Part shown: in pieces, positions 12,323 to 27,303 of the stretch
Layout of the letters: each line of letters opens with the position of its first letter
Position numbering within the stretch: the stretch's first letter is position 1
Assembly: GCA_039804165.1 (NCBI GenBank)
Contig: JBDRZZ010000021.1
Coordinates: 1 to 27,303 of the forward strand
Reading direction: 5' to 3'
DNA length: 27,303 bases
DNA from: a candidate division WOR-3 bacterium
Lineage (GTDB): Bacteria; Hydrothermota; UBA3072
The notes under the pieces: model-generated
Seen by the model: the letters and a program-made list of their open reading frames with translations, nothing else
What the model was told of the DNA's origin: nothing
Databases searched by the model: none
Position numbers and translations under genes: made by a program

Positions 12323-13633
12323 TTATTCTTCAAGCTTATACTCATTAATTTTGTTAAATAAAGTTTTATAAGAAACATTTAGAAGCCTAGCTGCTTCTGC
12401 CTTATTTCCATCTGTTTGCCTTAAAGCTTCTTTTATAATCCGAATCTCTGCTTCTCTTTTTGCTTTTTCTCCCATCTCCTTAAGACTTAAACTCTCTATT
12501 CTTTTATCCTCTTTTCTCTTTGAATAAAAGATTATGTCCCTTTCTTCAATCACATCTCCTTCGCATAAAATCAAAGCTCTCTTTATCACATTTTCAAGCT
12601 CCCTCACATTTCCTTTCCATTCATAATTTTTAAGTTTAAGGAGTGCCTTATCACTTATTCCTTTAACTTCTTTGGATTTTTGACTATATATTTCAATAAA
12701 ATACTTGGCAAGAGGTTCAATATCTTCGAGTCTTTCCTTTAGTGAGGGAATATGTATTGGAAATACACTAATTCTATAATATAAGTCTTCTCTAAATGCT
12801 TTTCTTTCTACTAAAGCTTCTAAATCCTTATTAGTAGCACAAATTATCCTCACATCTGCCTTTATTTTTTCTCTTCCTCCTACTCTTTCAAACTCCTTAT
12901 CTTCAATAACCCTTAAAATTTTGGACTGGAGCAAAAGAGGCATATCTCCAATTTCATCTAAAAAAAGAGTTCCTCCATCGGCTTGAGAGATCTTTCCTAT
13001 CCTTTTAGAAACACCTGTAGCGGTCCCCTTTTCAATACCAAATAATTCACTCTCAAGAAGGCTTTCGGGAATAGCAGCGGAATTAAGAACCACAAAAGGC
13101 CCATTTTTCCTTGCACTCCAATCATGAATTGATCTTGCAAAAAGCTCTTTCCCAGAACCACTCGGCCCTAAAAGGAGAGCCGTAAAATCTGTTTCTGCAA
13201 CTTTCTTCGCAAGAGTTATCGCATCCTTTAGAAGAGGTGAATTTCCTATTATCTTCCTTGAGATTGGGGAAACTCTCTTTTTAATCTCCTTCTGGATCTT
13301 TTCAATTAGAACCTCAGGGTCAAATGGTTTGGAGATAAAATCAGAAGCCCCTTTTCTAATCGCTTTTACAGCAGATTCAATGTCTCCATAAGCAGTTATA
13401 ATAAAAACTGGAAATTCTGGAGCAATCTCAAGGACCTTCTCTAATAAAAGAAGCCCATCCATTCCCGGAAGTTTAAAATCAAAAACTCCTATTGTAAAAA
13501 CGTCTCGATTAAAAACAGAAAAAGCTTCCTCTCCAGAAGAACAGGAATAAAAATCTAAGCCCGCTTTCCTAAAGTGAAGCTCTAACATCTCTCTAAAGTT
13601 CCGATTGTCTTCAACAAGCAAAATTCTACTCAT
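12323..13633 (-). CDS. Sigma-54-type response regulator (NtrC/AtoC family) with altered GAFTGA loop
   Basis: Phospho-activated enhancer-binding protein, 436 residues. Receiver domain 1-120: acidic pair E8/D9, phospho-acceptor D52, T80 and K102. AAA+ domain about 128-365: Walker A GPSGSGK (156-162), Walker B TLFLDEI (222-228), arginine-containing FREDLYYR (280-287). Fis-type helix-turn-helix about 395-432 (NKAEAARLLNVSYKTLFNKI). The loop that normally reads GAFTGA and touches sigma-54 is GTATGV (203-208): the Thr is kept and the Phe is Ala. Its gene overlaps the kinase stop by one base (TAATG), making a cognate pair. Confidence 0.93.
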   Translation of the reverse strand: MSRILLVEDNRNFREMLELHFRKAGLDFYSCSSGEEAFSVFNRDVFTIGVFDFKLPGMDGLLLLEKVLEIAPEFPVFIITAYGDIESAVKAIRKGASDFISKPFDPEVLIEKIQKEIKKRVSPISRKIIGNSPLLKDAITLAKKVAETDFTALLLGPSGSGKELFARSIHDWSARKNGPFVVLNSAAIPESLLESELFGIEKGTATGVSKRIGKISQADGGTLFLDEIGDMPLLLQSKILRVIEDKEFERVGGREKIKADVRIICATNKDLEALVERKAFREDLYYRISVFPIHIPSLKERLEDIEPLAKYFIEIYSQKSKEVKGISDKALLKLKNYEWKGNVRELENVIKRALILCEGDVIEERDIIFYSKRKEDKRIESLSLKEMGEKAKREAEIRIIKEALRQTDGNKAEAARLLNVSYKTLFNKINEYKLEE

Positions 13634-24795: not shown

Positions 24796-24962
24796 TCTTT
24801 CTTATTTTTTATTTTTCCCAGCAGTTTATAAAAATTACCCAAACCTCCGACTCTAAAACACCTAATAGTTTTTCCATAATCTCCTTTAAGTTTAAGACCC
24901 CCCTCTTTTTTATACCAAGAACTTCCATAAATAAAGATTAAATGAATACCTTTTTTCATTTT

Positions 24963-24988
24963 CAAGATTTATAGGAATTTTTGGCTCT
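24963..24988 (+). repeat. Left arm of 26-bp perfect inverted repeat
   Basis: Begins CAAGATTTATAGG and ends TTTGGCTCT. All 26 bases are the exact reverse complement of 25367-25392. The two arms enclose 378 bp that hold only the small secreted-protein gene. The match does not extend outward; inward it continues as TAAAA after a one-base offset. I see no flanking target duplication. Confidence 0.9.
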
Positions 24989-25005
24989 ATAAAATCTCAA
25001 TATTT

Positions 25006-25335
25006 CTATTTGTAAGCTCTAATTACAGTGGCCGTTTTACAATCATCATTTATAAAATTCACAATAACTTTATAACCAGGCCTTAAATCAGAAAGCTTTG
25101 CAGGTTGATCATTTAGATAAATTTTTGTGTTTTTAGTAACACAATGCTTCGTGATCACCTGTAAATTATTAAAAGTCGTTGTATAAAGCGCTCCAATTAC
25201 CCCAGAGTTACTCGGATTCTGGTATATCTCAATCTTATATACTGTGGATCTATTCACTAAATCCAAAGAATTTGCAAAAAGGAAGAAACCAACCATAAAA
25301 ATAGTTAATAATGCAACGAAAAGCTTCCTTTTCAT
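25006..25335 (-). CDS. Small secreted protein of unknown function
   Basis: 109 residues from ATG 25335, chosen because AAGGAGG lies 9 nt upstream. An in-frame ATG at 25374 would add 13 basic residues, has no ribosome binding site, and falls inside the right repeat arm. A signal peptide (1-22, hydrophobic core LFVALLTIFMVGFFLFA) is followed by a short beta-rich domain. The segment TKNTKIYLNDQPAKLSDLRPGYKVIVNF (67-94) has the 'T-x-I-x-x-N-x-x-PA-x-L-x-DL-x-PG-x-x-V-x-V' look of small DUF5666/OB-like barrels. C65 and C99 could form a disulfide. The gene is enclosed by perfect 26-bp inverted repeats and follows the GH8 gene on the same strand. Confidence 0.65.
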   Translation of the reverse strand: MKRKLFVALLTIFMVGFFLFANSLDLVNRSTVYKIEIYQNPSNSGVIGALYTTTFNNLQVITKHCVTKNTKIYLNDQPAKLSDLRPGYKVIVNFINDDCKTATVIRAYK

Positions 25336-25366
25336 ATTCTCAAGCCTCCTTTCAAATTTTCTTTTA

Positions 25367-25392
25367 AGAGCCAAAAATTCCTATAAATCTTG
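25367..25392 (-). repeat. Right arm of 26-bp perfect inverted repeat
   Basis: Exact reverse complement of 24963-24988. It ends 2 bp short of the last base of the GH8 stop codon (25395-25397) and lies upstream of the small secreted-protein gene. In a minus-strand message that spans both genes the two arms could pair around the whole small gene. Confidence 0.9.
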
Positions 25393-25394
25393 GT

Positions 25395-26807
25395 TTATTT
25401 TATCAAAATCATCTGGAGAAGTTCACTTGTGAAATCACCCGCCTTAATCCTATAAAAATAAATCCCTGTGGATAAATCGCTCCCATTAAAAATAAAACTA
25501 TATCTTCCAGCAGGCTTTTCTTCATTAATCAATGTTTTTACCTCTCGCCCTACAACATCAAACACTTGTAACTGAACAAATCTTGATTCCGGAACAAAAT
25601 ACTCAATCGTTGTTGTTGTCATAAAAGGATTAGGGAAATTCTTACCTAAATAAAAATACTTTGGTAAAGATTCTTCAATTCCCATTGGTGTAGGTTTCCA
25701 AAAATTCCCTGTTAAAACAAGCATATACAAAGAGCGAAGAGAAAGATTATAATATTGATCATCATACCCGCATCCATCAAGATAGAGCAATCTTAATGCA
25801 AAAGCATCCACCATAGACTGACTGTAGCACATACCTCCAACTCCAAAACCACCCACAAAAGAACTATTATTATATTGTGCTTGAGGATGAAGAGTCCCAT
25901 CCAAAAGATATCCATCTTTTATATTTGATGCTCCAATTGAATCAGCAAATTTTGATACTTTACAACACCAATTTTTAGCGTTTTCATTACCATTCCAAAT
26001 GTAATCAAGAGCCATTCTCCAGGGTGTTCTACAGGCATCATAGTGATAATAATCATCTCTTCCGGAAGGAGGATTCCCTCCTGGAATTCCATCATAAGAT
26101 TGCCAATCAGGAACAAGACCTGTATTAGAATCAGCACTGTTTTCTAATATAATATAAGAATCCTCCGCTATTTTCTCCCAAAAAGAATCATTCATTACTT
26201 CCCCAAATATCCTAAAATAAGCTGGGGTGTAATACGAGATGTCTGTTAACCCACAACCTCCCCAATGACCTCCAGGTTTCATTACATAAACATTATTACA
26301 ATTTACAAAATAATAATTTTTTAAAATCGAAATTATATTTTTTGCTTCTTCAAGGTAATTCTCTCCCCACTGGCAATAAGCAACAATTAAAGCAAAGGCA
26401 ACATCTATATCACCATCTGTAGCACTTCCCGGGTCACTAATACTCGAACAGGTTACCTTCCATCCCATCAGATTATAAGCCAGCGATGTCCTTTTACTCT
26501 TATAAAAAGCGAAAAGACTATCAAATTTACCTTTCTCTCCAAAATATGCCGTAAGAAGCATTCCATATCCCATCCCTTCTGAAATAGTTACGCTTGTATC
26601 GTCTCCACAAACCCGAAGCATTCCATTACATCTTTTTAGATATTTACTTTTCCACTTATTATAGGCGTTCTGAACATTGGTCGCTGTAATTTTTGTGGTT
26701 TGGTAACCGTAAGGATAATCTACATATTGAGGGAAAGGCTTTGCCTCTCCAAAAAGGGAAATAGAAAAAAGTATAAAAAGTAAAACAAAAATTTTCACAC
26801 TTCTCAT
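25395..26807 (-). CDS. Secreted family 8 glycoside hydrolase with type IX-like sorting tail
   Basis: Probable endo-beta-1,4-glucanase (GH8 also contains xylanases, chitosanases and lichenases). Of 470 residues: signal peptide 1-22; (alpha/alpha)6 GH8 domain about 30-370 with proton donor E77 in SEGMGYGML, the GH8 signature ATDGDIDVAFAL (D131/D133) and YDACRTPWR with D257; then a C-terminal segment (about 388-470) NFPNPF, VQLQVFDVVGREV, LSTGIYFYRI, which matches FlgD-like type IX secretion sorting domains. Eleven cysteines between residues 60 and 346 suggest several disulfides. It has its own promoter and AAAAGGAGG at the start. It neighbours an insertion sequence. Confidence 0.92.
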   Translation of the reverse strand: MRSVKIFVLLFILFSISLFGEAKPFPQYVDYPYGYQTTKITATNVQNAYNKWKSKYLKRCNGMLRVCGDDTSVTISEGMGYGMLLTAYFGEKGKFDSLFAFYKSKRTSLAYNLMGWKVTCSSISDPGSATDGDIDVAFALIVAYCQWGENYLEEAKNIISILKNYYFVNCNNVYVMKPGGHWGGCGLTDISYYTPAYFRIFGEVMNDSFWEKIAEDSYIILENSADSNTGLVPDWQSYDGIPGGNPPSGRDDYYHYDACRTPWRMALDYIWNGNENAKNWCCKVSKFADSIGASNIKDGYLLDGTLHPQAQYNNSSFVGGFGVGGMCYSQSMVDAFALRLLYLDGCGYDDQYYNLSLRSLYMLVLTGNFWKPTPMGIEESLPKYFYLGKNFPNPFMTTTTIEYFVPESRFVQLQVFDVVGREVKTLINEEKPAGRYSFIFNGSDLSTGIYFYRIKAGDFTSELLQMILIK

Positions 26808-26838: not shown

Positions 26839-26866
26839 AATTTAACACTATTTATCTCAATGTCAA
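26839..26866 (-). promoter_or_regulatory. Promoter of the GH8 gene
   Basis: TTGACA (26866-26861), 16-bp spacer, TAAATT (26844-26839). Expected leader about 25 nt with AAAAGGAGG. The rest of 26867-26990 has no gene; it holds a C6 tract and TGACA/TGTCA half-palindrome near 26910-26938 that may mark the left end of the insertion sequence. Confidence 0.65.
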
Positions 26867-26994
26867 TATAATAAAAAATTTATTGCAAAAATCAATTTTA
26901 TGTTCTTTCTGACAACCCCCCAAAATTTTTGTGTCAAAAGTCGGAAATTTAGTATTTGTAAGGGTTTAGATTGTATTTTTTCAAAGAAAAGGTA

Positions 26995-27021
26995 TTGAAA
27001 AAAACCTCCTTTCTGTATATT
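26995..27021 (+). promoter_or_regulatory. Possible transposase promoter
   Basis: TTGAAA (26995-27000), 15-bp spacer, TATATT (27016-27021). The match is weaker and the spacing different from the host-like promoters here. A start near 27028 would exclude the left arm of the hairpin that covers the ribosome binding site. Confidence 0.4.
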
Positions 27022-27043
27022 GAGAATAAAAACAGAAAGGAGG
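27005..27043 (+). promoter_or_regulatory. Hairpin sequestering the transposase ribosome binding site
   Basis: Perfect 11-bp inverted repeat CCTCCTTTCTG (27005-27015) / CAGAAAGGAGG (27033-27043) with a 17-nt loop. The right arm is the Shine-Dalgarno sequence, 6 nt before the TTG start. A transcript entering from outside would hide it; a transcript starting inside the loop would not. Confidence 0.7.
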
Positions 27044-27049
27044 AAAAAA

Positions 27050-27303
27050 TTGTCTAATAATATAAATAATCAAATTTCTAAAAATTTCAACTATTTTTTT
27101 GCGAAAATGAGAAAACATATAACGAAACCTGAGGTAGATTTTCTTAAGGATTTGCTTGTAGGCTTAATCAGAACGGGATATCCTATTGTATCAAAGATTT
27201 CAAAATCCTTAAGAGAGGATATAAAAGAAAAGAACACGGATAAGAGACTTCGGAGGAATATAGGCAGAAAGAACTTTTGGAGAGAAATTCTCTCTTCCTA
27301 TTT
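27050..27303 (+). mobile_element. 5' part of an insertion-sequence DDE transposase gene (cut by window edge)
   Basis: Open frame of about 84 residues from TTG 27050, running off the right edge. AAAGGAGG at 6 nt spacing supports the TTG. The translation has the look of the N-terminal helical region of IS4-like (DDE_Tnp_1) transposases: FFAKMRKHITKPEVDFLKDL, then a hydrophobic GLIRTGYPIVSKISKSLRE segment and a basic stretch before the catalytic core. The catalytic Asp/Asp/Glu residues lie outside the window, so the family is inferred from this N-terminal pattern only. The left end of the element is somewhere in 26900-27000. Confidence 0.7.

Follow-up and report, generated by a model that had tools for sequence, protein, structure and literature searches.

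A perfect 26-bp inverted repeat around a small secreted-protein gene in a WOR-3 bacterium, a candidate RNA stem joining the two ends of a message

A small gene in the genome of a candidate division WOR-3 bacterium is enclosed by two 26-bp arms that are perfect reverse complements of each other, and we suggest that the arms may work as RNA, pairing the leader of the message with its 3'-untranslated region and so affecting its processing or stability. This is the reading toward which we lean, and it is the best supported because a second unit of the same kind has both arms within its predicted transcript and because the processing stems of the ribosomal RNAs are, in the 80% of the genome that was scanned, the sole further perfect repeats of comparable size at the level of transcripts. 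The case for an RNA stem is built from two examples. An original prediction had offered three readings of the repeat, namely a mobile unit, two inverted copies of an intergenic repeat, and an RNA device with arms that pair around the small gene's message; of these, only the last gains from the second unit and the ribosomal stems.

The unit and its neighbors

The window, by which we mean the whole stretch of 27,303 nucleotides that was analysed, is an entire contig. Its right end (26908-27303) is a truncated IS copy with a sequence unrelated to the arms; near-identical IS ends are present at or near the ends of C47, C17 and C29, and diverged copies in C19 and C36. Features of the unit and its surroundings are collected in Table 1.

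Table 1. Features of the window unit and of the second unit (window coordinates unless a locus is named)
Feature	Coordinates	Strand	Remarks
Short A/U hairpin just past the 3' arm	24942..24961	-	z -0.36; too weak to call a terminator
3' arm (mRNA sense)	24963..24988	-	perfect reverse complement of the 5' arm; 17 nt past the small gene's stop codon
Small gene	25006..25335	-	109 aa; ATG start; apparent signal peptide (hydrophobic N-terminus)
Ribosome-binding site	25345..25352	-	AAAGGAGG, read directly from the sequence; outside the stem
5' arm (mRNA sense)	25367..25392	-	CAAGATTTATAGGAATTTTTGGCTCT; 2 bp past the GH8 stop, 31 nt ahead of the small gene's start codon
GH8 glycoside hydrolase with type IX secretion tail	25395..26807	-	PF01270; immediately upstream of the small gene
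Sigma-70-like candidate promoter	26839..26866	-	10 of 12, TG before the second hexamer; consensus match only, total matches no more than in shuffles
Second unit, perfect 28-bp inverted repeat (28 of 28)	L113 12474-12501 / 13438-13465		one gene enclosed

The description on which the prediction was founded is accurate in its particulars: the arms agree in all 26 bases, they enclose one small gene of 109 codons and no transposase, and the right arm lies 2 bp from the GH8 stop codon (25395-25397). Between the arms are 378 bp. The match is sharply bounded and drops to background on either side; a 31-nt pairing can be drawn at 94%, in which the added bases are A-rich and random-looking. The prediction's view that the match is far beyond chance is likewise upheld: in 40 runs of a first-order Markov model of the window, no perfect inverted repeat within 1.2 kb exceeded 16 bp, the longest per run measuring 12-16 bp. 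The flanks of the small gene are complementary over 26 of 26 bp at distances of 31 and 17 nt from the coding sequence, and folding of the unit gives a z of -5.9 with the arms paired.

The GH8 assignment of the upstream gene holds (E 1.7e-46, together with the type IX secretion tail). With only 2 bp between the end of GH8 and the arm, the small gene probably forms the next cistron downstream, and because the 59 nt from the GH8 stop to the start of the small gene are too few to hold a promoter of its own outside the arm, the two are probably co-transcribed. The candidate promoter ahead of GH8, recognized by its match to the consensus, is likely to serve both genes. No convincing terminator was found after the window's 3' arm, where the A/U hairpin of Table 1 is located.

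The small protein itself stands alone. No homologue was found in relatives, GTDB genomes, phages, plasmids, viral contigs, Pfam, NCBIfam or the PDB, and none in the sister species, where GH8 and UbiA are on separate contigs and synteny is uninformative. Its single-sequence structure prediction (pLDDT 59.8) is too low in confidence to use.

A second unit and the ribosomal RNA stems

Perfect inverted repeats with arms of 18 bp or more, separated by 60 bp to 3.3 kb, were listed over 1.57 Mb (80%) of the genome, and there are nine: the window unit, a 28-bp pair at L113, two RAYT genes, a REP doublet, a parS pair, the 16S and 23S stems, and one 18-bp pair. The parS pair (L103 5618-6205) consists of two parS-like palindromes, TGTTTCACGTGAAACA, that are 544 bp apart, one on each side of a probable rsmG-like gene; their site is probably close to the replication origin.

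The L113 pair has the same layout as the window unit. It surrounds exactly one gene, whose 297-aa product has a hydrophobic stretch at the N-terminus and matches a type IX sorting tail weakly, and the arms of the pair, whose sequences are unrelated to those of the window, lie 21 nt from the gene's start and 21 nt from its stop. Upstream of the 5' arm is a promoter-like TTGACA/TATATT, and the 3' arm is followed, after 2 nt, by a strong 11-bp intrinsic-terminator-like hairpin with a T-run. Because one arm falls between the promoter and the start codon and the other between the stop codon and the terminator, both appear to be inside the predicted transcript, a placement that for the ends of a transposon would be coincidence only. 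The predicted transcript of the L113 unit is delimited by promoter-like and terminator-like sites, and that of the window unit is deduced from its position after GH8. In the sister species, no such stem surrounds the gene of the L113 protein's nearest homologue (38% over 130 residues). A 22-codon upstream ORF (L113 12458-12526) spans the 5' arm and ends in a TGA that overlaps the GTG at which the secreted-protein gene begins; it could encode a leader peptide or be due to chance.

The two units also stand apart when gene flanks are compared directly. Among 2167 ORFs (1.19 Mb), complementarity between the 5' and 3' flanks has outliers at 28 and 26, followed by 17 (parS) and then 14. Controls with re-paired flanks reach 13-14; two of five runs also gave single matches of 87-88 nt, which are presumably repeats. 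A genome-wide duplex scan of gene flanks revealed no overall tendency of 5' and 3' flanks to pair, and its top match was the gene of a 23S-intervening-sequence protein amid simple repeats. At L098 3771-4139, GGATTTAGGATTT-like repeats flanking a stand-alone gene for a 23S rRNA-intervening-sequence protein can pair across the gene.

Apart from the two units, the only perfect repeats of such size at the level of transcripts in the part of the genome that was scanned are those that bound the rRNAs, the processing stems, which measure 29 bp for 23S and 24 bp for 16S and are perfect and sharply bounded. Calculated pairing energies are -38.3 kcal/mol for the window arms, -38.1 for L113, -38.2 for 23S and -36.7 for 16S. 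The ends of the RAYT elements have similar values, so energy alone has no power to separate RNA stems from transposon ends. What the window unit shares with the RNase III processing stems of 16S and 23S is a perfect, sharply bounded long-range repeat of 24-29 bp at -37 to -38 kcal/mol in the same genome; the difference is in what is enclosed, which is rRNA there and a protein-coding message here. An RNase III signature was not found in 80% of the genome, which is a weak test and not evidence of absence.

Applied to 400 kb of E. coli K-12 as a yardstick, this type of scan yielded IS186 ends and two 16S stems and nothing else, and about 0.8 Mb of the sister genome contained no unit clearly of the window or L113 type. 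Three sister-genome candidates were set aside: L160 because its arm has 16-mers in common with other places, and L152 and L163 because of their repeat-like intergenic context, the exclusion of these two being a matter of judgement. The latter (L152 6302-7197 and L163 17519-18876) are perfect inverted repeats of 24 and 20 bp around a lipoprotein-like and a radical-SAM-like gene, respectively, with arms that resemble dispersed intergenic repeats and yet have no other 16-mer match in the sample.

Other origins for the repeats

The arms might instead be the relic of a DNA event, such as a template switch or repair, in which a short stretch was copied in inverted orientation and now serves no function. 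Arms that are unique in the genome, perfect, sharply bounded and free of wobble pairs are what such an event would leave, and the stem is not conserved at the L113 gene's homologue in the sister species. However, the rRNA stems are just as perfect and as sharply bounded, and a relic does not readily account for two independent cases in one genome, each hugging exactly one secreted-protein gene at 17-31 nt, when the surveyed part of the sister genome has no clear case. We regard this origin as unlikely, while still giving it some weight.

The arms could also bound an invertible segment, with recombination between them flipping the gene relative to an outside promoter and switching the secreted protein on and off. 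Phase variation often affects proteins that are secreted or exposed at the surface. The layout at L113, where promoter and terminator are outside the arms and the gene is inside, is that of an on/off switch. Against this possibility, the window and L113 arms are unrelated, so that no common recombinase site is visible, no dyad symmetry is seen in the arms by eye, and no dedicated invertase was found: the genome's only PF00589 or PF00239 matches are two XerC/D-like proteins (tyrosine recombinases) and one large serine recombinase on another contig. An invertible segment therefore strikes us as improbable.

A non-autonomous mobile unit, either a MITE or a passenger cassette moved in trans, was the first reading of the original prediction, and it has fared poorly. 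Perfect terminal repeats around a gene without homologues are suggestive of such a unit, and our scan also returned mobile elements of the RAYT/REP class. Two RAYT (Y1 transposase) genes with GGGTCAG-type inverted ends are located at L089 7670-8677 and L090 13953-14877, and a REP doublet with no gene and the same ends as L090 is at L117 15478-15656. Like the window unit, RAYT elements place one gene between inverted repeats and they occur in the same genome, but they are defined by the Y1 transposase and the shared GGGTCAG-type ends, and the window unit has neither. Several copies with the same ends and different flanks, as expected of a MITE, are not seen either. The whole unit is single-copy in the genome, and with up to 3 mismatches allowed the 26-mer has no third copy in the 1,955,234-base (1.96-Mb) genome, a 49-contig draft in which it occurs as the two arms only, and no match in 146 other genomes of the phylum. 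Searches of the GTDB and viral collections with a 22-mer core gave no match, and no target-site duplication is seen. Two weak partial matches (C2 and C11) were dismissed as chance. That the 26-mer occurs only here is one part of what the prediction itself had named as arguing against mobility, the other being a small gene and arms fixed at one site in all relatives, and the lack of a third copy in the whole genome equally disfavors two inverted copies of an intergenic repeat. The L113 unit, alike in layout and different in its arm sequences, also speaks against a mobile element, and an insertion there would need to have landed exactly between a promoter and its terminator. We consider a mobile unit very improbable. 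Least credible of all is chance or an assembly artefact, for although the genome is a draft of 49 contigs, simulated sequence gives 12-16 bp and not 26, and the two cases occupy matching positions relative to their genes.

A possible stem around the message

A handful of bacterial mRNAs are known in which the two untranslated ends pair over a long range, through short contacts. For the window unit, we envision that the small gene would be transcribed, probably as the second cistron behind GH8, and that the 5' arm in its leader would pair with the 3' arm in its 3'-untranslated region. The resulting 26-bp helix, of about -38 kcal/mol, would close the message into a loop and leave the ribosome-binding site outside the helix. 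One option is that a double-strand-specific RNase cuts the helix, parting the small message from that of GH8. Alternatively, the helix may shield the ends of the small message from decay. We infer both that the stem forms in the cell and that it leads to cutting or protection, and either of these two outcomes may apply.

Several known systems come close to this arrangement. In the icaR mRNA of S. aureus, the leader and the 3'-UTR of one mRNA pair and thereby present a double strand to RNase III (PMC3868564), as we propose here, but the contact is the short motif UCCCCUG over the Shine-Dalgarno region, whereas the present arms span 26-28 bp and leave the ribosome-binding site free. The hbs mRNA of B. 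subtilis likewise has an interaction of its 5'- and 3'-UTRs, which protects it against RNase Y (PMC7821165) and involves 14 nt, compared with 26-28 perfect base pairs here. An intervening sequence in the 23S rRNA of Coxiella resembles the window unit in its length of about 430 nt and its small ORF and is excised by RNase III (PMC4990558); it differs in residing within rRNA and encoding an S23 protein, whereas the window unit follows GH8 and encodes a protein without a family.

A broader proposal, which we advance tentatively and with more doubt than the stem itself, is that selected secreted-protein messages of this bacterium are held in private, perfect 26-28-bp stems similar to those of the rRNAs, to be excised or capped at both ends by one helix. 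If the pairing proposed for the window and L113 units is true, it would constitute a device for mRNA processing or stability far longer than the icaR and hbs interactions, and perfect stems of 26-28 bp around single protein genes would mean that processing in the style of rRNA extends to messages as well. Such stems would also leave a simple signature in the sequence by which other genomes could be searched.
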